The notes below the pieces were generated by a model. The model ran no database searches, had not been told where the DNA came from, and saw only the letters and a list, made by a program, of their open reading frames with translations. Shown in pieces: positions 61 to 25,737 of a stretch of 31,224 nt of DNA. This DNA is from a virus. The position numbers and the translations under genes were made by a program. The stretch spans positions 1 through 31,224 of IMG/VR virus record IMGVR_UViG_3300021090_000080; one strand, written 5' to 3'. Numbering within the stretch: the stretch's first letter is position 1; every line of letters starts with the position of its first letter.

Positions 61-1146
61 ATGCCTGGTGAAATCCGCAGTTTGGAAATCTTTGGTGTTG
101 GCACATGGGATGCTTCCACTGGCCGCGTCATTGTGACCGAGACAGATTTGGATGGCATCGTTGAGTCATTCTACGGGCTCCAAGGCAGCAACATTGTAAA
201 GCCGCACCTCAAGCTGGGCCATAGTGATGCTCAGAAATGGTTCGGCCAAAAAGATGGCATCCCCACCCTCGGCTGGATCAGCCGTATTTGGCGTAACGGC
301 AAAAAGCTGTTCGCAGATATTGTGGATGTGCCCGATATGCTGATGGATTTGATCCGCGCTGGTCGGTATCACAACGTCAGTTCAGAAGTGTATCTCAACG
401 CATCATTCGAGCATAACGGCAGGAAGTGGGGAAAAGTCCTTTCTGCCGTTGCGCTCTTGGGTGTTGAGATGCCCGCAGTCAAGGATTTGGCGGGTATTGC
501 CAATGCCTTGTTCACAGCAGAGCGCCAACCAACACTGCGAACGGAAGGTGCTGACCTTACAGTCATTGATCAGGAGAACGAAATGCCTGGCGATCCCAAG
601 CTGCCCCTGTTCAGTCAGGAGCAAATGGACGCCTTGATCAAGGCGGCTGTGGACAAAGCAGTCGTTGAGGTCGTGGCGAAGCAAGACAAGACCGTCCAAG
701 ACCTGACAGCAGAGCGGAACGCACTCACGGTGCGCGCTGAGTCTGCTGAGAAGGAAGTCAAGGCGGTCAAAGCAACTGCTGCCGTTGCCGAAGCCACAAT
801 GATTGTGGACCAGGCGATCAAAGACGGCAAGTTGCTTCCGAAGCACAAAGCGATGGCCATGGCGTTCATGTCCAACACCGGCGCCATCAAGTTTGGTGAA
901 GGTGAGAAGTCAACCGCTGTCCTGTTCAAAGAGTTGCTTGAGAGCCTTGGCTCCCAGGTAGCTCTGAAGGAAAAGGGCGACGGCAAGACTGCTCAGGGCA
1001 GTTATGCCACTGCGGCCGAGGAAGTGGATGCCAAAACCAAGGCAGCCATTAAGGACAACTCCAAGCTGTCGTATGGTGATGCCATGCAGCAGGTTTTGGC
1101 TGCTGATCCTGACCTCAAGGGCCGCTACGCCCTGTCCACCCAGTAA
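61..1146 (+). CDS. Mu GpI-like prohead protease fused to scaffold
   Basis: Predicted 361-residue capsid maturation protease with a C-terminal scaffold. The N-terminal half (about residues 1-160) has the look of the phage Mu GpI protease family: a VKPHLKLGHSD stretch near residue 46, then GWISRIW and a VSSEVYLN segment with a conserved-type serine pair. The second half (about 190-270) is rich in Ala, Glu and Lys and is probably coiled coil, as expected of a scaffold core that is digested during maturation. The position just before a decoration protein and the major capsid protein fits. An ATAGG ribosome site precedes the ATG. In-frame codon 175 is a second likely start (see the nested entry). 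Family assignment is by motif and context, not alignment. Bases 1-60 hold only the end of an upstream gene or leader: two frames run open from base 1 and stop at 43-45 and 48-50, and I cannot choose between them. Confidence 0.82.
   Translation: MPGEIRSLEIFGVGTWDASTGRVIVTETDLDGIVESFYGLQGSNIVKPHLKLGHSDAQKWFGQKDGIPTLGWISRIWRNGKKLFADIVDVPDMLMDLIRAGRYHNVSSEVYLNASFEHNGRKWGKVLSAVALLGVEMPAVKDLAGIANALFTAERQPTLRTEGADLTVIDQENEMPGDPKLPLFSQEQMDALIKAAVDKAVVEVVAKQDKTVQDLTAERNALTVRAESAEKEVKAVKATAAVAEATMIVDQAIKDGKLLPKHKAMAMAFMSNTGAIKFGEGEKSTAVLFKELLESLGSQVALKEKGDGKTAQGSYATAAEEVDAKTKAAIKDNSKLSYGDAMQQVLAADPDLKGRYALSTQ
583..1146 (+). CDS. Nested in-frame capsid scaffold protein (internal start)
   Basis: An internal ATG at codon 175 of the protease gene (protein beginning MPGDPKLPLF) is preceded by CAGGAG at 571-576 with a 6-nt spacer, a better ribosome site than that of the full-length gene. 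Starting here gives a 187-residue, Ala/Glu/Lys-rich protein that lacks the protease domain. Phage Mu (gpI/gpZ) and lambda (C/Nu3) both make a scaffold from an internal in-frame start in the protease gene, so this is a known strategy. That it is used here is inferred from the ribosome site and the domain boundary. Confidence 0.65.
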   Translation: MPGDPKLPLFSQEQMDALIKAAVDKAVVEVVAKQDKTVQDLTAERNALTVRAESAEKEVKAVKATAAVAEATMIVDQAIKDGKLLPKHKAMAMAFMSNTGAIKFGEGEKSTAVLFKELLESLGSQVALKEKGDGKTAQGSYATAAEEVDAKTKAAIKDNSKLSYGDAMQQVLAADPDLKGRYALSTQ

Positions 1147-1157
1147 GGAGGGCACAC

Positions 1158-1562
1158 ATGTCCTATCGTGGCGAATTTTGCGCCGTCACCAAAGAGGCCG
1201 TTGCCGATCTGCGCAGCCACAAGTACAAGGTGGTTGAGCTTGATTCAAACGGCAAAGTTGGTCTGTCGGCGCTCGACAAGGGCTATGGCATCCTCCAGAA
1301 TGTTCCCAATTCTGGTGAAGCTGCCGCTGTCGTCAATTGGGGCACCACACAGGCGATTGCTGCCGTGGCCGTCTCCATCGGCGACAAGCTCAAGGTCCAG
1401 TCCGGTGGCTGGCTCACGCCAGTTGCTTCGGGCGCTGCCCACACTGGGACCTTCATGCTGATGGGTCGCGCAATGACTTCTGCTGTTTCCGGGTCCATAT
1501 TCACTGTCGAACTGGAGCGCCAGTTGCTGGTGAACGTGTTGTCCGGCGCGGCCATCGCTTAA
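1158..1562 (+). CDS. Capsid decoration / cement protein
   Basis: A 134-residue small protein between the protease-scaffold and the major capsid protein, where head decoration proteins usually sit. It is rich in Gly, Ala, Val and Ser and has the short beta-strand pattern of trimeric capsid cement proteins: VVELDSNGKVGLS, then GDKLKVQSGGWLTPV, then GRAMTSAVSGS. This resembles the DUF2190 or Mu gp-type decoration families; the exact family is uncertain. A strong AAGGAGG site at 1144-1150 precedes the ATG, as expected for a protein needed in hundreds of copies. No signal peptide or membrane segment is visible. Confidence 0.72.
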   Translation: MSYRGEFCAVTKEAVADLRSHKYKVVELDSNGKVGLSALDKGYGILQNVPNSGEAAAVVNWGTTQAIAAVAVSIGDKLKVQSGGWLTPVASGAAHTGTFMLMGRAMTSAVSGSIFTVELERQLLVNVLSGAAIA

Positions 1563-1578
1563 CCAGGAGGTCACCACA

Positions 1579-2541
1579 ATGCCCGCTCCCTCCACTGGTC
1601 GCGAACTCCATATTGATGTGCCGCTTTCCAACACTGTTGTTGGGCGGCGCCCGTATGGCTTCGTGGCTGATGAACTGCTTCCTGTCACTCCGGTGGACAA
1701 GCAGTCCAACATCTACTACAAGTTCCGCCACCTTGAGTGGTATCGTCACGAAGCTGGCCTGACCCTTCGCGCCCCAATGACCGAGGCGAAGAAGGTGTTC
1801 ATGACTGTGTCTTCGGACGGCTACATGGCCAAGAACTATGCTCTTGGCACTGAATGGCCGGTCGAGGATGAGGTGAACGCCGACAGCGTTCTCCAGTGGG
1901 CGACGAATGCCGGCAACTTCGTCATGGACAAGATGATGCTGGACTATGAGGTCCGTGTCGCGAACCTTTGCGTGGCGTCTGCGAACGTGGCGACGATCTT
2001 CGTGGCAGCCTCCAGCTGGGTCGGCCCTGCGGTGCCGATCTTGACCAACATCCTGGACTGGCGCGAGAATTTTCGGCAGATCACTGGCCGCTATCCCAAT
2101 ACGGCCATCATCCCAGAGAAGCTCCACAGGCGCTTGGCGGTGAACGACCAAATCCGTGACATCCTGTTTGGTGATCGCGGCGGTGTCACCACCGACAACA
2201 AGCAACTGGCGGGCCTTTTCCGTGTCGGAAAGGTGATCACTCCGCTTTCCCAGGTCAACACGTCAGCTGAGGCTGATCCTCAGGGCGGCACCTTTGCCGA
2301 CATCTGGGCCGGCAACGGCAACTTCTGGTTCGCCTACATCGAGAACCTGTCGGGCATGATGACCGATACGTGGCTGAACGCCTTCCGGTGGACCAGCCCG
2401 CTGTTCGGCACTCCTATGGCCGTCCAACGGTATCCGTTCGATGCCAAGCGCAAGTGCTATGGCTTGGAGATCAACTACTACCAGGACGAAAAGGTGGTGT
2501 CGAACGATCTGGCCATTCGCGTCAGTTCGCTCGATCCGTAA
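1579..2541 (+). CDS. Major capsid protein
   Basis: A 320-residue protein, the usual size for an HK97-fold major capsid protein without a long delta domain. It follows the protease-scaffold and decoration genes and ends just before a strong terminator. Typical features are the N-terminal VVGRRPYGFVADELLPVTPV segment (shells often carry such a start before the N-arm), an acidic middle helix (WPVEDEVNADSVLQWATNAG) and a C-terminal region with WTSPLFGTPMAVQRYPF. An AGGAGG site lies at 1564-1569, 9 nt before the ATG. Assignment rests on size, order and general sequence character; I did not align it. No N-terminal cleavage site can be fixed from the sequence alone. Confidence 0.8.
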   Translation: MPAPSTGRELHIDVPLSNTVVGRRPYGFVADELLPVTPVDKQSNIYYKFRHLEWYRHEAGLTLRAPMTEAKKVFMTVSSDGYMAKNYALGTEWPVEDEVNADSVLQWATNAGNFVMDKMMLDYEVRVANLCVASANVATIFVAASSWVGPAVPILTNILDWRENFRQITGRYPNTAIIPEKLHRRLAVNDQIRDILFGDRGGVTTDNKQLAGLFRVGKVITPLSQVNTSAEADPQGGTFADIWAGNGNFWFAYIENLSGMMTDTWLNAFRWTSPLFGTPMAVQRYPFDAKRKCYGLEINYYQDEKVVSNDLAIRVSSLDP

Positions 2542-2550
2542 GCAGAATGA

Positions 2551-2581
2551 GCCACAGAGGGGGCATCCTCTGTGGCTTTTT
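2551..2581 (+). terminator. Intrinsic terminator after the capsid gene
   Basis: A perfect 10-bp stem, GCCACAGAGG (2551-2560) with CCTCTGTGGC (2567-2576), closes a 6-nt loop and runs straight into TTTTT (2577-2581). It lies 10 nt after the capsid stop codon. This is a canonical rho-independent terminator and probably caps the highly expressed capsid transcript, with partial readthrough into the connector and tail genes. Confidence 0.9.
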
Positions 2582-2598
2582 CGTACCCTGCGCAGGTA

Positions 2599-2634
2599 GG
2601 GCTGGGAATGACGATGCCCCGTCGTTCCCAGCCC
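2599..2634. other. Second long hairpin before the glycosyltransferase
   Basis: A 15-bp stem with one G-T wobble pairs GGGCTGGGAATGACG (2599-2613) with CGTCGTTCCCAGCCC (2620-2634) around a 6-nt loop. It is followed by ACTTCCTTT, not a clean T run. It sits 17 nt after the intrinsic terminator and about 10 nt before the ribosome site of the next gene. It may be a backup terminator, an RNA processing site or a 5' stabiliser for the downstream message. No promoter is evident between the two hairpins. Confidence 0.6.
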
Positions 2635-2654: not shown

Positions 2655-5564
2655 ATGGAAATCGCCATCGTATCTCCGGGCTTGGCTTTTGGCCCGAACA
2701 CTCTCGACCACTTCTCGCTCGGCGGCAGCGAGACTGCTGCTCTGATGATAGCCAAAGAATTGCGGGCTTTGGGCCATTTGGTCACACTGTTCTGCAATCT
2801 CCCCGGTCCAGGGCGCCCTGACTTCATTCAATCTGGGTCCATTGGTCCTGATAAGGTGCGATACGTCCAAATTGAGGCGTATGGCCCATTTGCTGCAAAC
2901 ACCGAAGTTGACTTGCTGATCGTTAGTCGTGATCCGCGCCTGTTTGGTGTTCCGCATCAGGCAAGGAAAGCAGTGCTATGGTGCCATGATTTGGCAACCT
3001 ATCATCAGTACACGCCGATGCTTTTACAGCATGCCTTCAATTTTGATGAGATTTGGACAGTAAGCGAATACCACCGTCAGCAAATCCACAAAGTGATTGG
3101 CTACCCTTTGGCTAACATTCGCGCCACTCGCAATGGTATCAGCAGGTGGAACATTGACAAGGTATTCCCACGTCAAGACAAAACGCTGCTTTATGCCGCA
3201 CGCCCTGAGCGCGGTCTTGACAATTTGATCAAGCCAGGCGGCATTATGGATCGACTGCCTGATTTCAAGCTCAAAGTCTGCATGTACAACAATTACCCTG
3301 AGCACATGCGTGGCTATTATGAGTTCTTGTTCAATCGCATGAAGCAAATGCCGAACGTGGAAATGCTCGGTAGCTTGACTCAAAAGCAACTTCGTCAACT
3401 CATGTCGGAGACTTGGGCATATGTCTACCCTACTGGCTTTGAAGAAGTTAGCTGCATCCTTGCGCGCGAAGCTATTGAGCAGCACCTTCCTTTCATCTGC
3501 ACCCATCATGGCGCTTTACCTGAGACATTGGGGGGCGACGCAGTTTTTGTTGGGCCTCAATCTGATCGGACGTATGGCAGTTCAACCCAGCTTCCGATTG
3601 AGTTCGCAGCAAAGATACGTTGGCTCCATGAACATCCCTCGGAGTATGCCGAACTCCAGCGGCGCTTGAGCGAGCGCCAAGACCTTTATTGGGATGATGT
3701 GGCAAAGCAGATGGCTTCTTGGGCAGAGCCTCTACAGCCCTCTGCCTACAGCAAACTATTCTCGCTCATCGAGGATAGCGATGTTGTAGCAGCGAAAGCA
3801 TACGCCGACAGCCTACCGCCCAGGGAACTCACGAAAGGTGTGCGTACACTGATCGGACGCGTGGAGCAATGGTATCCTTACTTGTTCGGGCGCGAGACGT
3901 TCGCTGATTACTATGAGCGTTATTACAAGAACGAAGATGCCAAGGGGGCACGTGTCAAGCCGAATTTGGAGAACACTGATCGCTTCAAATCTATCGCAGA
4001 AGCAATTGCTCAGTTGCCGCCTGGATCAAAGGTGGTTGACTATGGGTGCGCTGAAGGCACAATCATCCTTGGATTGGCCAAGCATTTTCCTGACAAATTG
4101 TTTTTTGGGCACGACTTCGCCCAGAGCAATCTTGTTCTGGCTCAGAAATATGCTGATCAAGATGGTCTAAAGAATGTGTCATTCCACTTGGTGACTGGGC
4201 CCAAGGATATTGCTGGTAACGATTATGATGCAGCAGTCGTTTCTGAGGTTCTTGAGCATGTTGAGAAGCCTTGGAAATTGACAGAGGAAATCGAGAGCCA
4301 CATCAAGGAAGGGGGTAAAATCATCATCACAGTGCCATCCGGTCCTTGGGAAGCTATCGGGCTGTATGACATCAACCAATGGGGCTGGCGCGCTCACATT
4401 TGGCATATCAACAAGTGGATGATCCGCAAAATGTTTGCGGACAAAGAACACTGTCAAATGGCCAATATCACCATCGGTCATGGGGTGGATGGTCGCGCTC
4501 TTGGTCATCTTGTGTACATTTATCAAGTTGACCACAAGCCGATCTATGCCATTGATCCTTTGGAGAAGGCCAAGCAGCACCGTTGCCGGCAAACTGTTTC
4601 GACCGCAATCATCGCTATGAATTCTGAGGAAACCATCCTTCGCACTCTCAACAGCATTGGGCGATATACTCAGCAAATTCAGATTGCACTTGGTCCGTCC
4701 CAAGACAACACCCAATCTCTGATCAAGAATTGGGCCACTCAGCATCCATGGGTTGAGATGCGTGTTGTTCAAGTTCCCAAGATTGAACCGGGCAAGTTCG
4801 GGTTTGATGATGCCAGGAACACATCCGCGCAAGGTCTTGATGGTGACTGGATTTTCTGGATCGACACTGACGAGTATCTGTCGCCAGGTGCCTGGTATAG
4901 CTATCTGCGTAACAATGCCTTTGACAGCTATGCGATCCACCAGCACCACTTTACGGTCGATCCGCGTGGCACCCCAGCACAGCTTGATAAGCCTGCCCGA
5001 TTGTTCCGTAATAATGGATCGTTCACATTCTATGGGAAAGTCCATGAACATGCCGAAAAGGGCTTCAATGGAGGGCCAGGGTTTGGTATGATCATGCACA
5101 ATGTGGACATTGGCCACGTTGGATATGTGAATGATGCAGTTCGTCGTGATCGCTTTCAACGCAATTACCCATTCTTGGAGTGGGATCGCCAAGTGTACCC
5201 TGAGCGTAAGCTTGGGCTCTATCTTTGGTTGCGTGATACCATCCATAAGATGCGGTGGTCGCTCGAACAGAGGGACATGAATTTCGCTCGCCAGTTGGCT
5301 GAGGAAGCCGTACAATTCTACAAGAAAAATTCCCGTCTGTTTGAGAACATCGGGAGTGGATATCAGCAAGCTCTAGGATATGTCAGCGAGGCCATGACGA
5401 TCTTGGGGAGGGGCATCCCTTTTGAAGTCATGGTCAAAATGCCAGACACTGGCGGTGTGATGGCATATGCTGGCATTTTTGATGATCCTGATGAACTTGC
5501 CTATCCTCTCAAGCAGTTCATGCGCGACGAACTGAACAAAAGGACGAGTGGATACTGGCAATGA
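2655..5564 (+). CDS. Three-domain GT4 glycosyltransferase - SAM methyltransferase - GT2 glycosyltransferase
   Basis: A 969-residue enzyme with three recognisable domains. Residues 1-370 resemble a GT-B glycosyltransferase (GT4 type): a Gly-rich loop at LGGSE (22-26) and an E-x7-E motif (E264 and E272) for the nucleotide sugar. Residues about 440-620 are a class I SAM methyltransferase: motif I VVDYGCAEG (460-468), an acidic GHDF strand end and EVLEH (531-535). Residues about 645-850 are a GT-A/GT2 domain with STAIIAMNSEETI and a WIDTDE motif whose DTD (737-739) would bind metal and sugar nucleotide. The last ~120 residues are helical and unassigned. It follows the capsid terminator, has an AGGGG site 6 nt before the ATG, and its stop overlaps the next start (ATGA). 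The acceptor is unknown; a virion protein is likely from the position, but modified DNA or host glycans remain possible. Confidence 0.85.
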   Translation: MEIAIVSPGLAFGPNTLDHFSLGGSETAALMIAKELRALGHLVTLFCNLPGPGRPDFIQSGSIGPDKVRYVQIEAYGPFAANTEVDLLIVSRDPRLFGVPHQARKAVLWCHDLATYHQYTPMLLQHAFNFDEIWTVSEYHRQQIHKVIGYPLANIRATRNGISRWNIDKVFPRQDKTLLYAARPERGLDNLIKPGGIMDRLPDFKLKVCMYNNYPEHMRGYYEFLFNRMKQMPNVEMLGSLTQKQLRQLMSETWAYVYPTGFEEVSCILAREAIEQHLPFICTHHGALPETLGGDAVFVGPQSDRTYGSSTQLPIEFAAKIRWLHEHPSEYAELQRRLSERQDLYWDDVAKQMASWAEPLQPSAYSKLFSLIEDSDVVAAKAYADSLPPRELTKGVRTLIGRVEQWYPYLFGRETFADYYERYYKNEDAKGARVKPNLENTDRFKSIAEAIAQLPPGSKVVDYGCAEGTIILGLAKHFPDKLFFGHDFAQSNLVLAQKYADQDGLKNVSFHLVTGPKDIAGNDYDAAVVSEVLEHVEKPWKLTEEIESHIKEGGKIIITVPSGPWEAIGLYDINQWGWRAHIWHINKWMIRKMFADKEHCQMANITIGHGVDGRALGHLVYIYQVDHKPIYAIDPLEKAKQHRCRQTVSTAIIAMNSEETILRTLNSIGRYTQQIQIALGPSQDNTQSLIKNWATQHPWVEMRVVQVPKIEPGKFGFDDARNTSAQGLDGDWIFWIDTDEYLSPGAWYSYLRNNAFDSYAIHQHHFTVDPRGTPAQLDKPARLFRNNGSFTFYGKVHEHAEKGFNGGPGFGMIMHNVDIGHVGYVNDAVRRDRFQRNYPFLEWDRQVYPERKLGLYLWLRDTIHKMRWSLEQRDMNFARQLAEEAVQFYKKNSRLFENIGSGYQQALGYVSEAMTILGRGIPFEVMVKMPDTGGVMAYAGIFDDPDELAYPLKQFMRDELNKRTSGYWQ

Positions 5565-6046
5565 GCTACGCCACTTATGCCGATCTGTTGCCTCGCTACA
5601 AGCCGATCTACACAATGGTCGGCACTGAGACGCTCCAGGTCACAAGTTTAGAAGTGAACTCAGTGTTCATTTATGGTGCTGAAGGCATCATGGATGCTTA
5701 CCTGGGACGGCGTTACCAAACGCCTGTACCGGCAAGTCCACTGATCACCCACATTGCTTGTGATCTGGCTCTATTCAACATGCTTGTCGAAAAGCTGCCT
5801 CAAGTGCCCGACTATGTCAAAGACAGATATGATCGGTCGATGAAGATGTTGGAGCAGATCGCTGAGGGTGAAATGGTGATATCAAGCGCCTCTATTTTGA
5901 CCACAGGCGATCAGGAAGTGTGGTCATCTGGGCAAGGCTATCATGGTATCTTTTCGCCAGTCATCAACATGGAGGATCAGCGGGTGGATGAGGATCGCGC
6001 TGACTATGAGAAGGGCCAGCGCACCGATGATGCCACCACACCATAA
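5561..6046 (+). CDS. Gp36-like head-tail connector protein (DUF1320 type)
   Basis: A 161-residue protein beginning MSYATYADLLPRY, the typical opening of the Mu Gp36-like (DUF1320) family, followed by an EGIMDAYLGRRYQTP segment and a helix with YVKDRYDRSMKMLEQIAEGE. In this family the short N-terminal helices resemble head-completion adaptors that bind below the portal. The Ser/Asp-rich tail (residues 110-161) is probably flexible. The ATG overlaps the stop of the glycosyltransferase (ATGA), so translation is likely coupled. The next gene starts on the last base of this stop codon. Confidence 0.82.
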   Translation: MSYATYADLLPRYKPIYTMVGTETLQVTSLEVNSVFIYGAEGIMDAYLGRRYQTPVPASPLITHIACDLALFNMLVEKLPQVPDYVKDRYDRSMKMLEQIAEGEMVISSASILTTGDQEVWSSGQGYHGIFSPVINMEDQRVDEDRADYEKGQRTDDATTP

Positions 6047-6555
6047 TGGCAGCAATCCTCTATGATGACAAAGCGGTCAGGCGCCTTGTCCGTAAGTTCA
6101 AAGAAGAAATCAGCAACCCACGTCAAGTCTATGCTGATTTGGCGCGAACTGCACGAGACTATGTCCGCGAAACCATCACACTCCAAGGCCGCAATACGCC
6201 TTGGCCCGGTCTGAGTCAATGGACAAAATCTCGTACTGGCCGCCGCAAAGCACTGATCGCCATTCGTCCACTTATCAAGGCGAAGTGGAGCAATTCATCA
6301 GCTGAGGTGTACTTTGATGCGCCGAGTACTGAGTGGAATTTGGATCAGCATAATACTGGTTTCTCTGTCCGTGGGGTACAGCACAAAAGGATGGTTGTTC
6401 CCAGTAAGTCCGGTGGAATACTGGCTGTGTTTACAAAGCGGAAACCAGTTAAGGTTCCTCGCCGCCGTGTCTATCCAACACAACGCGAAATGGAAAGCAT
6501 GGTGTCTGTCACTCTAAAGGAATGGGCAGAAAGGTTGGATAGGCTCCGTGCTTGA
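6046..6555 (+). CDS. Phage virion morphogenesis protein (tail completion, Mu gpG-like)
   Basis: A 169-residue basic protein resembling the phage virion morphogenesis family (P2 gpS / Mu gpG type). Characteristic features are an N-terminal helical region, a WPGLSQWTKSRTGRRKALI segment (the W-x-x-L-x-x-x-T pattern before the 'K-x-L' strand), a middle strand and the NTGF piece that corresponds to the usual 'HQFG' turn, then a C-terminal helix. Such proteins join the tail to the head. Start TAATG overlaps the stop of the connector gene. It ends 8 nt inside the next gene. Confidence 0.8.
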   Translation: MAAILYDDKAVRRLVRKFKEEISNPRQVYADLARTARDYVRETITLQGRNTPWPGLSQWTKSRTGRRKALIAIRPLIKAKWSNSSAEVYFDAPSTEWNLDQHNTGFSVRGVQHKRMVVPSKSGGILAVFTKRKPVKVPRRRVYPTQREMESMVSVTLKEWAERLDRLRA

Positions 6556-7000
6556 TTTTTATGGCGTCCAAGAAGCGTTAAGGGATTTGCTCAAGGCAGA
6601 TGCCACTCTGGCTGCTTCTGTCAAGCAAGATTCATTCTTCATCGAAATGATGGATAGGGAGGATCGGCTTGACCACATGCCGATTATCAATGTCCGTTTG
6701 ACAGAAGGTGCGTCGGAAATTCGTTCAATTCCAAATGGATATTACGTCACAGCACGTTTTGACATCGACATCGTTTCATTCGACTTTACTCACTTCAATA
6801 AAGCAGCTAGAGTTCGTGATAATTTGCTCAACCGGGCGATGGCAGTTGTGAAAGGAAATGCCGACTTCCATGTTGATATTTCCACATCAACGGTCGGGCC
6901 AGATATCAAGTTTGGGGCAGGTACTCCAGACCAAGGCGGTGGGCATCTTGCCTTGGCCACTTTCTCTGTAACCATCGAAGCGGACATAAACGCTTCGTAA
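6548..7000 (+). CDS. Tail terminator-like protein
   Basis: A 150-residue protein starting at GTG (6548), overlapping the previous gene by 8 nt. It has the size and fold pattern of tail terminators and neck proteins (lambda gpU or Mu gp37 type): N-terminal helix FYGVQEALRDLLKAD, then strands with IINVRLTEGASEI, a strand-turn-strand YYVTARFDIDIVSFD, a helix AARVRDNLLNRAMAVV and a final strand ALATFSVTIEADI. Position between the tail completion protein and the tail tube supports the role. No ATG start fits the start of homologous length, so GTG is preferred. Assignment is by order and pattern. Confidence 0.68.
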   Translation: MLDFYGVQEALRDLLKADATLAASVKQDSFFIEMMDREDRLDHMPIINVRLTEGASEIRSIPNGYYVTARFDIDIVSFDFTHFNKAARVRDNLLNRAMAVVKGNADFHVDISTSTVGPDIKFGAGTPDQGGGHLALATFSVTIEADINAS

Positions 7001-7015
7001 CAGGAGGCACTACAA

Positions 7016-8071
7016 ATGGCTTCTGGTACTGGTGGCCAAGTTGCCCTGTACAAAGCTGGCTCACTCTACCATTCAGTGGGGTCTGCCAACATCTGGACTG
7101 ACTTCGTCAGCGAGAGCATCGAACACCAACTCCAAGAGTTGGAGGAAGCGAGCATCACCGGCAACAAGGATGCTCCGCCCTCTCATAAGGGCATTGACTC
7201 TGCTGCCGGCGACATCAATCTGGAGCCTAACCCTGATGCTTGGGGTCATTGGATGAGGGCCACCTTCGGCCAATCATCCGGCACCCTTCTCTGCAATGCA
7301 GGTTCCACGGGCGCCAACTCTAACGCATATGGCGCTGGTCAACCAGTGTTCATGCATCAGTTTGTTCCGATCCAGACCGCTGTGGATCAAAACAATTTCT
7401 TGCCTGTGTATACTACCATGGTGTACAAGGACACAGGCTCAGCCTTCTTCTACCAGGGAGGTCAGATACACGGGCACCAAATACAGGTGCAGGCTGGCCA
7501 GCTTGTCAAATCGGTTGCGACTGGCATGTGGCGCAAGGTGGAGCGTTTTGCTCGTATTGACGCCATCCGTGACATGACGGTTCCCAAGTCCAAGAAGTTT
7601 GTGTGGGATATGGCATCGGTTCAGGCTGGACCGGGCGTGTCCTCGCTCGCTGGGAACACGAACTTTGAGGCCATCAATATCAACTTGAACATCCCACTGG
7701 AAGGCGTTGTCCTGCTTGACGGCACCAAGAACTATGCCGAGTTCCAGGTCAATGAGTTCAGGCGCGCTCAGATCAATGGAACCATTTCATTCCGCTCACA
7801 AGCGGAGTATGATGCGTTCGTTGTTTATGAAAACCGTTTTCTGCGTCTAACTCTGCGGAACACCAACAGCTTGATGGTGATCGGAAATCCCGCGTCAGCC
7901 TTTTTCCCTACGTTGGAAATTGACATTCCGCAGTTCAAGTTCCTGTCTTGGAGCACCCCGATTGGTGGACCCAATCGTTTGATCACTTCGTTCACCGGCA
8001 AGGCTGAGCGTGACCCGACGAGCGCCTATATGATCGAGGCTCGCCTCACCAATATCACTTCACTCTACTAG
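7016..8071 (+). CDS. Major tail tube protein
   Basis: A 351-residue protein with an AGGAGG site (7001-7006) 9 nt before ATG. The N-terminal part (MASGTGGQVALYKAGSLYHS) and the GDINLEPNPDAWGHWMRATFG stretch correspond to the beta-sandwich of tail tube proteins, where a 'leave P x G l' loop precedes a helix ending in LF/ATFG. The remainder repeats a strand-rich pattern, including AEFQVNEFRRAQINGTISF and the final EARLTNITSLY. It sits between the tail terminator and the assembly chaperones, the usual place. The length is long enough for two tube-like domains in one chain, the second starting near residue 215, which would resemble a hexameric tail tube in place of twelve monomers; this is inferred. 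Confidence 0.8.
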   Translation: MASGTGGQVALYKAGSLYHSVGSANIWTDFVSESIEHQLQELEEASITGNKDAPPSHKGIDSAAGDINLEPNPDAWGHWMRATFGQSSGTLLCNAGSTGANSNAYGAGQPVFMHQFVPIQTAVDQNNFLPVYTTMVYKDTGSAFFYQGGQIHGHQIQVQAGQLVKSVATGMWRKVERFARIDAIRDMTVPKSKKFVWDMASVQAGPGVSSLAGNTNFEAININLNIPLEGVVLLDGTKNYAEFQVNEFRRAQINGTISFRSQAEYDAFVVYENRFLRLTLRNTNSLMVIGNPASAFFPTLEIDIPQFKFLSWSTPIGGPNRLITSFTGKAERDPTSAYMIEARLTNITSLY

Positions 8072-8079
8072 GATCGTTC

Positions 8080-8268
8080 ATGACCACCAAAGTCACTGTT
8101 GAAGTTTCTGCTGGCGCTGGGCATGATGTTGCAGTGCTCACCGAGGATCATATGTTCGGTGAGGAATACAAAGTCACTGGCTGCGACATCATTGGTCCTG
8201 GCACCAAACGTGACTACTACGCCACCAGTTCTCGGCGCATTCAAGTGAGAGAACTCCACAAGAAGTAG
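8080..8268 (+). CDS. Small hypothetical tail-region protein
   Basis: A 62-residue protein I do not recognise. It has a short strand-rich sequence (KVTVEVSAGAGHDVAVLTE) and ends with a basic RRIQVRELHKK. It has no membrane segment or signal peptide. It lies 8 nt after the tail tube gene, is translated in the same direction, and has an AGGA at 8070-8073. Its place between tail tube and chaperones suggests an accessory tail protein, but this is only context. Confidence 0.6.
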   Translation: MTTKVTVEVSAGAGHDVAVLTEDHMFGEEYKVTGCDIIGPGTKRDYYATSSRRIQVRELHKK

Positions 8269-8294
8269 CTTCACCCGGAACCTCAGAGGGCATT

Positions 8295-8717
8295 ATGAAG
8301 GTTTCTTTCTCCAAGAAGATCATCTACACTCCTGACTTTAACGACAATACCACACTTCCTTTAGCTGAGCAGTGTCAGGTTGAACTGACGCCACTCAGTT
8401 TTGAGGAACTGATGCACTTGATGGAGGCATTTAAGGGCGTCATTGGTGATGAGAACGGTGATGAGAAAGTGGACGAGAAGTCCATGGGCAAGTATCTGAA
8501 ACAAATGCGAGCTATCAGTAAAGATGCTGCTGAGATCATCATTCATCGCGCCAAGATGAATAATCTGAACGATGTGAATGGAGAAAGCCTCAGCATTGAG
8601 GATGTCACCAAGTACCCGTCGTTCATGCCTCTGTTGGCAGACATCGTTAACAAGCTGTGCGAGATTTCCACCCCTTCGGAGACAGACACAAAAAACTTGA
8701 AACAGCAACCAGACTAA
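8295..8717 (+). CDS. Tail assembly chaperone, zero-frame product (gpG-like)
   Basis: A 140-residue acidic, mostly helical protein (for example FEELMHLMEAFKGVIGDENG and YLKQMRAISKDAAEIIIHR) with a GAGGG site about 7 nt before the ATG. It occupies the place of lambda gpG, directly before the tape measure gene. Its 3' end contains an in-frame slippery A AAA AAC sequence at 8690-8696, from which a longer product can be made by -1 frameshift. It is expected to coat the tape measure protein during tail assembly and to be absent from the finished virion. Sequence similarity to lambda gpG is not expected to be detectable. Confidence 0.85.
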   Translation: MKVSFSKKIIYTPDFNDNTTLPLAEQCQVELTPLSFEELMHLMEAFKGVIGDENGDEKVDEKSMGKYLKQMRAISKDAAEIIIHRAKMNNLNDVNGESLSIEDVTKYPSFMPLLADIVNKLCEISTPSETDTKNLKQQPD

Positions 8718-8965
8718 GTCAGTTCCCAATTAGGGCTGAAAAAGTCGGGTTGCTGACGACTACACATTGGTCATGCACATACTATCTGGGATGGTTCTTT
8801 CGCCTCTATGAAGTCAAGGAAACTGGATGGTGGTTAACGCGGCTCCCTGATAGCCGCCCGATAGGCAGGCAGGACGCTTTCTTCATTAGGTCTATGGAAA
8901 TCATATGCACAACTATGAACCTGATGCGAAAAGAGGAACTGGATCGGATTAGGACACAAAGATAA
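8295..8965 (+). CDS. Tail assembly chaperone, -1 frameshift fusion product (gpGT-like)
   Basis: Joining codons 1-134 of the zero frame to the -1 frame at the slippery site gives a protein of about 223 residues. The extension of 89 residues (LETATRLSQFP onward) is different in character: basic and aromatic, with YYLGWFFRLYE and FIRSMEIICTTM, as in lambda gpT-like domains. The fusion ends with TAA at 8963-8965, and the tape measure ATG begins on the last A of that stop. This end-to-start fit supports that the -1 frame is translated. In lambda and relatives the fusion is made at a few percent and is essential for tail assembly. Confidence 0.85.
8690..8755 (+). promoter_or_regulatory. Programmed -1 ribosomal frameshift site with downstream stem
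   Basis: The heptamer A AAA AAC lies exactly in the X XXY YYZ phase of the zero frame (8690-8696). Six bases later (8703-8710) an 8-nt arm CAGCAACC pairs perfectly with GGTTGCTG at 8748-8755. The stem can continue inward after an A-G mismatch with GACT (8712-8715) against AGTC (8743-8746), and an inner hairpin can form with CAG/CTG and CCC/GGG near 8720-8738. Slippery site, spacer of six, and stem all fit the known stimulatory layout. Confidence 0.85.
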
Positions 8966-11900
8966 TGGCCATAGCCCAACTCCTAATCCAGATCAAGGCC
9001 ACTGGGTCCCAGGCAATTGCGCTGCTCGACCAGCTTGAGAAGAAGCTGGGTGCAACCAGCCGATCTGCCGAAATCTTTGATCTCCAACTTCGGAATGTTG
9101 ATCGCACTCTGAAGTATCTGGCGACTGGCGCGGTATTGGGGTTGGGCGTTTCCTTCCTCAAGACCGCCGGTCAGTTGGAGCAGTTGACGCTTCGCCTCGC
9201 GTCACTTGAAGGCTCCCTTGATGTAGCCAACAAGAAGATGGACCAGTTGGTGGCGTTGACCACCAGGGTTCCGTACACCATTAAGGGCGTGTCTGATGCC
9301 TTCGTTAAGCTGAAGGCTGCTGGCATCAATCCCATTGTTGATGACCAGGGCAACGGGCCTCTCAAAAAACTGCTTGATGGCATTGCCGCCTTCGGCGGTG
9401 ACACTGACATCCTGAACCGCGCCACTATCGCCATCCAGCAGATGGCTGGTAAGGGCGTGATCTCAATGGAAGAATTGCGTCAGCAGTTGGGTGAAGCGAT
9501 CCCCACTGCGATCCGTGCCATGGCTGAGGGCATGGGTATCTCTGTGTCCCAATTGATCAGGGATGTCAGCCGAGGTAGGGTGGAGTTTGAGAAGGGCTTC
9601 ACTGCAATGATTGATACCCTCGGCAAGAAATATGCCGGGGCTGGCGAATTGCTCAAGACCACCTTCCTTGGGTCTTTGATGCAAACGCGCAACGAATTTG
9701 AGAAGTTCGCACTGCTGTTTCAGCGTTCCGGTTATCTGGACGTATTCACTGCCTTCATCAAAAAGGCAAATGATGAACTGTCCCGGTTGAACGCATACCT
9801 GGCTTCATCAGATGCCAAGAGCGGAATTGAAGCATTTAATCGGCGTTTGATCAGCTTTGCTGAGGCGGCATACAAAGCTACGTTGCCACTCCAGTCTTTA
9901 ATCAGCATGATCAGCAATCTCGCATCAGCAGTGACTGGGTCAATTAGTGGCATCCCTGCTGAAATAATTGGTGGTGGCATTCTTGGCTTCATTTTGTTTG
10001 GCAAGAAGGGTGCGTTGGCTGGCGCCTTGTTTGGCGTTGTCCATGAACAATTGGATAGCATCATTCGATTGATTGCTGCCTTCATTGGTGGTGTCAATGA
10101 TGCTGCTTCATCCATCGGATTGGACCTTGGCGATGCTGCGGCTGGCGGCTTGCTTGGTTATATGATCTTTGGTAAGAAGGGGGCGCTCATTGGTGGCGCA
10201 CTCGGCCTTGTTGAAGATATGGCGCGCATTGTTCGTGATATCATTCTTTGGTTTTCTGACCAATTTGAAACGCTTGGTGTCCGCATTGGCTTGTTCTTGC
10301 GCAATGGCATCATGGATGCCTTTGGCGGAGCTAAGGTGGATATTGATAAGACGTTGAAAGAAATGGGCCTGGGCGGCAGATTGGATGCTGCTCGTGCAGA
10401 TGACAAGCTTGGCCGCTTGAATCAGAACAATCCGTTTAACCGGGCGTTCTGGGATAAAGGCGCCATGGAAAAGGAAATGGCGCTTCCTGATCCTGAGAAA
10501 ATGGGAGTCCAGAACTTTCGCGCCAGTATCGAGCAGACCGTTGAATCATTCAAAAAGCTGCGCGAAGAAACTGTTAAGAATTTTGAACAGATCAAGACGT
10601 TCGGTGGTTTGACCGACGCTCAAGATAAGGCTCTGCAAAAAGTTAACAAGACTATGTCTGAAGCTGAGCTTCGCCTCCAAGGCGGCGGCGATTCAATGGC
10701 CACTTATGTGGCTAAGCAGAAGAAAAGCCTTGGTGAACTGCAAAAGATCATTGGTGATGTCCGCGATGGTATCAGCAAAGAGACTGATCCAAATAAGAAG
10801 GCTGGGCTTCAGAAGGAACTCGTATCACTTATGATGACGGCTGGCCAGTACAAGCAAGTCATTTCTGGACTTGAGCGCATGGCCGGTGCTAATATTGGCG
10901 GTAAGATAGACAAGCAGTTCCTTCAAATTGCCGTCACTTTACGTGACATGAACAGAGAGGTTGATCGCGCTCTTGAGTCGTTTGGAGGTTTTGCTGATCC
11001 TATCCAATTAGCGGTGGATAAAGCAAAGGAAAAGTTTGAAGATTTGCGCGATAAGATCGAAAAGACTGAGCTTGCCATCAGACAGTCTCGCGCCTCAGTT
11101 GACCAAAAACGTGTCGCTCTTGAAGCAATCGCCAAAACACTTGAGAGAGTAGGTGAAGCTGAGAAGATTGTTGAGGCGCGCGAACGGTTCAAAGCAACAA
11201 TTGCAGTACAGCGCGCCACCCAAGAAGCGACAAATGCTGCGTTGATTGAGCGCACCAATGCGCTTGTCATGCAAGCAGAGAACAATTATGACCAATATGC
11301 TGTTGCGACGATCCGCGCCAATGAACAGGTACGTCAATCATTGCAAGGCATTCAAGATAAGATGCGCGATATTGAACTAAACATGCGCAAAAATGGTGGG
11401 TTGATCCCAGATGATGTAGCGCAGAACGCAATTGATAGTCTCAAGCGCACTTACGAGTTGATGTCGATTGAGGGGCAGAAGTTTGTTGAGCGTGCTAAGT
11501 TCCAGGCAAGCGACTGGGGCCGTATGTTCACCAATATTGCCTCGTCATTGGAGAACTCTTTGGTGTCTGGACTTGACATGCTTGTTACCAAGACTGGAAA
11601 CGCTACTGACATTTTGCGTAGTTTCTACCGCGACATCACCAAGGAAGTAGAACGCTATCTTGTCAAGATGGCGATGATGGCCGTCTTTGGGACAGGGGAT
11701 AATGCTGGGCAAGGCCAGGCCATGTCTGGCATTGTTGGCTTCCTTGGCAAGATTGGTGCTGGTGTGGCTACGTCAATGGGCTTCGCCAGCGGCGGATCAT
11801 TCCTTGTTGGCGGCACTGGCGGGACTGATTCTGTCCCGGTTAAGTTCATGGCCTCTCCTGGTGAGCGCGTTAGTGTTGAGACAGAAGGTCAACAAATGCG

Positions 11901-24445: not shown

Positions 24446-24844
24446 ATGAGTGAGAAACGCATCATTGATTTGGCGTCTAGGCTGCGTGAGCTCAAGACGA
24501 CAAAGGATGAGATTGAGGACAGCTTGTCTGTCGTCAATGCTGAGATCAAGAACATCCAGGAAAAAGACCTGCCCGGTCTAATGCAAGATGCTGGCGTGGC
24601 CTCTATGAAACTGGAGGGAGTTGGAACGCTCTATCTGCGCAGCGAAGTGCGGATTGGGCTCAAGGCTGAGGACCGCCAAACAGGCTATCAATGGCTGGCA
24701 GAGAACGGTCATGGTGACTTGATCGTGGAATACGTCTGGCCGAAAACTCTCCAATCGTTTGCGCGTGAACAATTGGAGAAGGGCGTAACAATGCCTGCAA
24801 TCTTCAACGCAACCTACGTTTCAATCGCATCATTGAGGAAGTGA
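24446..24844 (+). CDS. Hypothetical protein with N-terminal coiled coil
   Basis: A 132-residue protein I do not recognise. Residues 1-45 form a probable coiled coil (LASRLRELKTTKDEIEDSLS, then VNAEIKNIQEKDLPGLM), followed by a small alpha/beta domain with LEGVGTLYLRSEVRI and YQWLAENGHGDLIVEYVWPK. Similar-sized proteins with this style often sit beside ssDNA-binding proteins in phage replication modules, but no function is claimed. The ATG at 24446 has GGAG 7 nt upstream; a GTG 6 nt earlier is less likely. The stop overlaps a GTG of the next gene (GTGA). Confidence 0.6.
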   Translation: MSEKRIIDLASRLRELKTTKDEIEDSLSVVNAEIKNIQEKDLPGLMQDAGVASMKLEGVGTLYLRSEVRIGLKAEDRQTGYQWLAENGHGDLIVEYVWPKTLQSFAREQLEKGVTMPAIFNATYVSIASLRK

Positions 24845-24846
24845 AA

Positions 24847-25737
24847 ATGGCTAAGAAGGCGAGTGCACCTGCCCCTGTGGAAGAACCAAAGACCAATCTT
24901 CCCGCAATTGTTCAAACATACGACTATGGCGAAGATGCCGGAGCAGGCACCGAGCAGGTCGATGTCAAAGACATTGCAATTCCACGGCTTAAGCTGGGGC
25001 AGTCCATGACCCCTGAGGTCAAGGACAAGATTGTGGAAGAAGGCGACCTGTACCACAGCATCACAAAGGAAGTGGTGTGCGCCAAAGGCGATAAGCTGAA
25101 GGGCATTATCGTCGGCATCACCACCGAGTACATCTTGTGGCGGGATCGCAAGACTGGCGGTGGCATCATGGCGCGCGCCAAGCGCGTCCAGACCAAGAAT
25201 GGCTATCGCTACAAGTGGGATAAGCCCAATTCCACATTCACTGACAAACTGGACGGTCGCACAGCAGTGGAGTATAAGACTGCCGAATACATCGACCAGG
25301 ACAAGCTCAGTGAATGGGGAACGCAAGTCCCCAATGACCCTGAGAGCGGGCCTGCTGCGACAAAGCATCACCACTATCTGGTATGCTTGCCGGAGCGCAA
25401 CTTTGAGGTGGTGGCAATCTCATTGGCCCGTACTGCGGAGAAGAAGGCCAAGAACCTTAACGCCATCATCAACGCGCCGATGTCAAATGGCCAAGTCCCG
25501 CCGTTGTTCGCCAAGATGTACAACCTTTCCACAGTGGAAGAAGTAAGCGGTGACAACCGCTATGCCAATTGGGTGTTTGATGGAGCAGGTTTCATCGACC
25601 CAAAGAGCGACACATTCCATCGCGCCAAGACTGTGTTCGATCAGTTCAAAACGGCCAGCTATCAGGTCGCCATGGACGACGATGCGCAGAATGAAGCGCG
25701 TGCTGGCAGCAAGGGTACTGGCGACGGGAAGTTCTGA
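24847..25737 (+). CDS. Probable ssDNA-binding or replication accessory protein
   Basis: A 297-residue protein. A low-complexity Lys/Ala/Pro N-terminus is followed by DIAIPRLKLGQSMTPEVKD, a short motif seen near the start of a widespread phage protein family of unproven role. The middle has strands and aromatic residues (IVGITTEYILWRDRKTGG). The end is acidic and disordered-looking (MDDDAQNEARAGSKGTGDGKF), as in ssDNA-binding proteins that recruit partners with an acidic tail. The ATG at 24847 has GAGGAAG 5 nt upstream. It is between the coiled-coil protein and the primase, which fits a replication partner. The family role is not certain; the ssDNA-binding suggestion rests on size, acidic tail and context. 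Confidence 0.55.
   Translation: MAKKASAPAPVEEPKTNLPAIVQTYDYGEDAGAGTEQVDVKDIAIPRLKLGQSMTPEVKDKIVEEGDLYHSITKEVVCAKGDKLKGIIVGITTEYILWRDRKTGGGIMARAKRVQTKNGYRYKWDKPNSTFTDKLDGRTAVEYKTAEYIDQDKLSEWGTQVPNDPESGPAATKHHHYLVCLPERNFEVVAISLARTAEKKAKNLNAIINAPMSNGQVPPLFAKMYNLSTVEEVSGDNRYANWVFDGAGFIDPKSDTFHRAKTVFDQFKTASYQVAMDDDAQNEARAGSKGTGDGKF

Follow-up and report, generated by a model that had tools for sequence, protein, structure and literature searches.

A 31,224-nucleotide stretch of viral DNA (IMG/VR record IMGVR_UViG_3300021090_000080; hereafter the window) carries, between its major capsid and head-tail connector genes, a single gene for a GT4-methyltransferase-GT2 fusion. We conclude that this protein is probably a soluble trifunctional glycan synthase, made late in infection, that decorates a protein of the virion. 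For this phage lineage, making a sugar chain with a methyl group, probably on the particle, looks like a fixed step of assembly.

Parts and motifs of the enzyme

The sequence-only reading of the window had described one 969-residue frame with GT-B, SAM methyltransferase and GT-A parts. The open reading frame and Pfam agree with that description, its motifs (E264-x7-E272, residues 460-468, EVLEH and DTD 737-739) lie exactly where it had placed them (Table 1), and domain searches together with structure prediction back two transferases plus a methyltransferase in a single chain. Pfam places Glyco_transf_4 at residues 23-162 (6.7e-8, with Glycos_transf_1 narrowly under the cut-off), Methyltransf_31 at 457-562 (3.5e-12) and Glycos_transf_2 at 650-752 (1.6e-8). 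Five general Methyltransf models score above the cut-off in the central part, and the methyltransferase models together span residues 444-585. The AlphaFold model, built from a 17-sequence alignment, has a mean pLDDT of 86.2 and a pTM of 0.85, and residues 767-778 form its sole segment with pLDDT below 50. The highest 19-residue hydropathy of the window protein is 1.27, and no membrane segment is evident.

Each part carries the features of its class. The first has a GT-B fold, the E-x7-E motif and the glycine-rich N-terminal GGSE, retained in 63-65 of 65 full-length proteins. The second has a Rossmann domain, motif I and the acidic end of the next strand, where position D487 is D in 52 of the 65 proteins, N in 12 and E in 1. 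The third has a GT-A fold, a DxD, and the HE and H-x-GY motifs of the SunS-GmaR group.

Table 1. Features of the structural locus and of the enzyme, in window coordinates.
Feature	Coordinates	Strand	Basis
Head maturation protease	61..1146	+	phrog_976 3.7e-36; conserved upstream in relatives
Head scaffolding protein	1158..1562	+	phrog_673 2.4e-7
Major capsid protein, candidate acceptor	1579..2541	+	phrog_1005 9.3e-39
Terminator-like hairpin, TTTTTC tail, directly 3' of capsid gene	2550..2582	+	sequence; scan lists stem on - strand
Second hairpin, 15-pair stem, shortly 5' of enzyme start	2599..2634	+	sequence, scan
Trifunctional GT4-methyltransferase-GT2 enzyme	2655..5564	+	969 aa, ATG to TGA; AlphaFold model
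GT4 (GT-B) part, residues ~1-365	2655..3749	+	Pfam, profile matches, Foldseek
GGSE motif of GT4, residues 23-26	2721..2732	+	kept among 65 relatives
E264-x7-E272 of GT4	3444..3470	+	E264 63/65 (D in 2), E272 65/65
Helical linker, residues 366-440	3750..3974	+	AlphaFold secondary structure
Class-I SAM methyltransferase part, residues ~441-640	3975..4574	+	Pfam Methyltransf_31; 3mgg
SAM motif I VVDYGCAEG, residues 460-468	4032..4058	+	G464 61/65, G468 63/65
EVLEH, residues 531-535	4245..4259	+	E531 65/65, E534 64/65, H535 65/65
GT2 (GT-A) part, residues ~641-860	4575..5234	+	profile matches GmaR, SunS, ThuS
DxD (DTD) of GT2, residues 737-739	4863..4871	+	65/65
HEH of GT2, residues 797-799	5043..5051	+	HE pair common to SunS, ThuS, GmaR
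Variable C-terminal helical region, residues 861-969	5235..5561	+	identity comparison, model
Head-tail connector (adaptor)	5561..6046	+	phrog_195 3.5e-18
Neck / tail completion protein	6046..6555	+	phrog_26 4.4e-6
Tail tube (major tail) protein, candidate acceptor	7016..8071	+	PF18906 8e-9; phrog_290 1.4e-12

Among solved structures, the best profile matches of the GT2 part are GmaR (6.6e-21), SunS (3.5e-17) and ThuS (2.3e-14), with teichoic-acid and chondroitin enzymes ranking behind them, and SunS is also its top Foldseek match. SunS and ThuS bear the name of S-glycosyltransferases of glycocins, and GmaR transfers GlcNAc onto flagellin (PMC9638930). Because the catalytic core is ~23% identical to that of SunS, the two may act on different classes of acceptor. 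By profile, the GT4 part resembles 3c4q (4.4e-12) and GlgM (6tvp, 5.7e-12), and by Foldseek tll1591 (TMt 0.75) and PimA. The methyltransferase part matches 3mgg (6.3e-17) by profile; its matches are broad, taking in 6uv6 (a D-glucose O-methyltransferase), WbdD and also protein lysine methyltransferases, and this mixture of sugar and protein types does not settle its substrate. The C-terminal region (residues 861-969) has the lowest median pairwise identity of the parts compared (0.20) and is a possible acceptor-recognition part.

Fifty-seven residues, spread across all three domains, differ in no more than one of the 65 full-length proteins. Near-invariant positions include SE 25-26, H111-D112, RPERG 183-187 and E272 in the GT4 part; E531, E534, H535, P561, G563 and H581 in the methyltransferase; and D737, D739, E740, H797-E798-H799, H821 and Y824 in the GT2 part. 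Purifying selection acts on all three domains: between close pairs, whole-protein dN/dS is about 0.06-0.17, and that of individual domains 0.04-0.22.

Inteins typically sit in conserved active-site motifs, and in this one phage enzyme family they have invaded two different active-site positions. The intein of locus L027 lies inside GG|SET of the GT4 part, after the second G, and those of L030 and L035 lie just before HEH of the GT2 part, two residues upstream. The inteins are ~300-400 aa long, two of them with HNH domains, and the frames that bear them are L027:2119-6276, L030:5977-9828 and L035:5998-9981. An IS605 OrfB / TnpB-like gene (L027:190-1398) lies upstream of the L027 enzyme.

Position and inheritance among structural genes

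The placement of the enzyme between the capsid gene and the connector, and its joint to the latter through an ATGA overlap of stop and start (5561-5564), are both as the sequence-only reading had them. The 113-nt gap between capsid gene and enzyme contains two strong hairpins that this reading overlooked, the first of them terminator-like. Among 28 distinct intervals between capsid gene and enzyme, with L001 omitted because it duplicates the window, 20 contain a terminator-like hairpin; in shuffled gaps the share is 8%. The hairpin's presence suggests that the enzyme would be expressed by read-through at a level below that of the capsid protein, as suits a catalyst. Farther along the window, at 24841-25734, lies a protein of PF23977, the Pam3 phage gp34-like family (4.4e-38).

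Scanning with the window protein yielded five full-length relatives of 50-57% identity, all in loci ordered protease, scaffold, capsid, enzyme, connector (L003 stops inside the connector). An alignment scan added three further members of this clade and the distant L021 (~32%), and a scan seeded with L021 revealed a second clade, clade B, in which other genes intervene between capsid and enzyme and the enzyme mostly lies immediately 5' of the connector; in L025, L030, L032 and L035 a gap or small frame separates the two. In total, we collected 65 distinct full-length relatives that retain the reading frame and the motifs, a degree of conservation well past what chance would give. Every clade shows synteny of the enzyme with structural genes, and all members of the family are from uncultured phages. 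E-values from the related-locus search are local.

We also approached the lineage from the capsid side. A scan with over-specific patterns from the single capsid protein gave nothing, whereas a capsid alignment scan succeeded, and we considered the best 80 of 281 loci, those with the most similar capsid. Within this set, 72 of 80 contigs carry the enzyme or its cut-off start, which answers the sequence-only reading's suggestion to look for the same fusion beside capsid genes in other phages. All three domains are present in 54 of the 72; the other 18, a count that leaves out L108 and its extra upstream GT4, show only part of the enzyme, in almost every case owing to the end of the contig or locus (in L071 two overlapping frames carry the enzyme beyond the locus as fetched). 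The eight without a downstream match sit on contigs that end within 3 kb downstream of the capsid gene. The one clear exception is L067, where a lone GT4 gene followed by DegT-like, GT2 and B12-radical-SAM genes fills the slot; these unfused sugar genes occupy positions 5879-10522. In L033 the chain is naturally split, with the GT4 part apart from methyltransferase-GT2. An inversion inside the structural block is seen in L072, L073 and L075, where the enzyme is on the opposite strand yet just 3' of the capsid gene; in L075 the inverted enzyme still precedes the connector.

Outside the lineage, a search of 50,697 phage records returned no full-length match to the enzyme. In isolates with capsid proteins ~25% identical (RDJL Phi 1, KPP23, Salgado, Vibrio 1.023.O and others), tblastn and annotation, used since the ORF filter drops genes beneath longer antisense frames, reveal no enzyme relative in the region. 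The position, taken at first to be unusual, is thus the rule inside the lineage, and the gene's absence holds for these distant isolates only. A first scan of genome contigs found no relatives; a second yielded two weak bacterial GT2 matches and, within MAGs, four contigs that are phage-like, so a prophage or host link does not emerge.

Across 20 phages, pairwise identities of the GT4 and GT2 parts correlate with those of capsid, connector and tail proteins (Spearman 0.60-0.78; 0 of 500 permutations), and those of the methyltransferase do so at 0.40-0.61, with at most 1 of 500 permutations reaching the observed values for any comparison, a pattern that plain linkage and shared ancestry would also produce. 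GT2 identity tracks the tail protein best (0.78, compared with 0.60 for capsid; n=20), which is only a lead toward the tail protein as acceptor. Position 201 of the tail tube protein is S in 30 of 30 sequences. A shared C-terminal Ser/Thr tail was sought on the capsid and tail proteins as an acceptor candidate, and no pattern stood out. In clade B, the capsid-enzyme interval of L021-L032 contains variable genes for 250-690 aa proteins, some with tail-protein-like PHROG matches; these are possible decoration proteins and alternative acceptors.

Proposed pathway and alternative readings

In the mechanism that we propose, the GT2 part and the variable C-terminal helices would bind a virion subunit, whether tail tube, capsid or a neighbouring head protein, and GT2 would move the first sugar from a nucleotide-sugar onto a side chain. 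The GT4 part would then add one or more further sugars, and the central methyltransferase would methylate the chain, ending its growth. That the acceptor is a virion protein is likely, and the methyl group is likewise expected to go on sugar rather than protein; the assignment of the priming step to GT2 is an even call. The virion target is suggested by three observations: the nearest relatives of GT2 are protein and peptide glycosyltransferases, the gene tracks structural genes, and ThyA is absent from all 12 relatives in which it was sought. On these grounds the proposal, made from the sequence, of a glycan on a virion protein stands as the likeliest reading. We entertain only tentatively the stronger view that glycosylation is obligate throughout the lineage, with the enzyme priming, extending and methyl-capping a head or tail glycan and virions made without it being defective.

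Sugar genes near some relatives, namely a UDP-sugar dehydrogenase beside the L030 enzyme and an extra GT2 in L026, fit the building of a glycan. The L030 segment directly 5' of the enzyme (L030:2671-5945) holds genes for a UDP-glucose/GDP-mannose dehydrogenase and a B12-radical-SAM protein, together with a small frame whose product clusters with L026's GT2-like protein. A second GT4-like gene lies 5' of the capsid gene in three loci (L083:618-1967, L092:1-723 and L108:903-2258). Epimerase genes were considered as a sugar supply and set aside, being present in only 2 of 12 relatives.

The transferases might instead modify a virion protein while the methyltransferase acts on protein, or the enzyme might additionally serve as a structural component or chaperone when head and tail join, a role that would account for how often it precedes the connector. 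In clade B the enzyme stays at the connector or close to it even though other genes part it from the capsid gene, in keeping with such a role, and the protein lysine methyltransferases among the profile matches are in keeping with protein methylation. However, the sugar-related matches (6uv6 and WbdD) score comparably, the hairpin ahead of the gene points to a low dose, and in L072, L075, L090 and L112 the enzyme either is encoded on the opposite strand or lies apart from the connector. We regard this variant as unlikely.

T-even phages have glycosyltransferases that act on modified DNA, and the enzyme could by the same token glycosylate and methylate modified genome bases against restriction. 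Phage glycosyltransferases do often target modified DNA (PMC12619734), but a ThyA/hydroxymethylase family member is present in none of 12 near-full-length relatives (42-71 kb, contigs possibly incomplete), and the thymidylate gene of the window is ThyX (PF02511 8.3e-33). Together these weaken, without removing, the case for DNA as the substrate, and the GT2 relatives work on protein or peptide and the gene lies among late structural genes rather than replication genes, leaving DNA hypermodification improbable. That the enzyme alters the host's polysaccharide, thereby blocking superinfection or changing the serotype, also has a low probability: the GT4 part does resemble transferases that build polysaccharides and glycolipids (PimA and others), but the window protein has no evident membrane segment, and the enzyme is positioned and co-inherited with virion genes and near-universal in the lineage, unlike conversion genes, which are usually dispensable cargo.

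Comparison with known systems

Among phages, virion glycosylation has previously been known from a few cultured actinobacteriophages, by way of separate genes. For cluster O mycobacteriophages, PMC11600133 (citing Freeman et al. 2023) reports glycosyltransferases that modify capsid and tail tube proteins, and describes an O-methyltransferase gene and three tandem glycosyltransferase genes, separate where ours are fused. The presence of a single-chain synthase in nearly every lineage member examined, across a diverse lineage, suggests that virion glycosylation is widespread in nature rather than optional cargo, and the enzyme offers a compact, testable route to methyl-capped protein glycans. 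The literature searched, of incomplete coverage, holds no description of a GT4-methyltransferase-GT2 fusion.

Partial likenesses exist. SunS, ThuS and GmaR have in common with the GT2 part a DxD-type site, HE and H-x-GY, but are not known with GT4 or methyltransferase parts, and are bacterial or prophage genes whose targets are bacteriocins or flagellin. Manatee Spring podovirus ctKR88 has a GT2-TPR-GT4 fusion, with more transferases and methyltransferases soon after the capsid gene, but there GT2 precedes GT4, the methyltransferases are unfused and the phage is of a different kind. A BFVD structure search showed that large sugar-methyl fusions exist in uncultured phages and giant viruses, where they may serve other purposes. 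As full-length analogues we rejected the best BFVD matches, since ~1000 aligned columns at an rmsd of ~29 A indicate that domain content alone is in common.

The nearest working analogue, judged by function and domain content and not by sequence relation, is A064R of PBCV-1, in which two rhamnosyltransferases and a methyltransferase, biochemically verified, complete the glycan of the Vp54 capsid protein (PMC7019647, PMC9614988). Like the window enzyme, A064R is one viral chain with two GT domains and a sugar methyltransferase. It differs in belonging to a eukaryotic algal virus, in its length of 638 aa and in its order, with the methyltransferase last (GT-GT-methyltransferase, compared with GT-methyltransferase-GT here); both of its transferases extend an existing N-glycan, and its domain 2 is of a different GT family. 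With those differences, the window enzyme would be the bacteriophage counterpart of this chlorovirus capsid-glycan enzyme.
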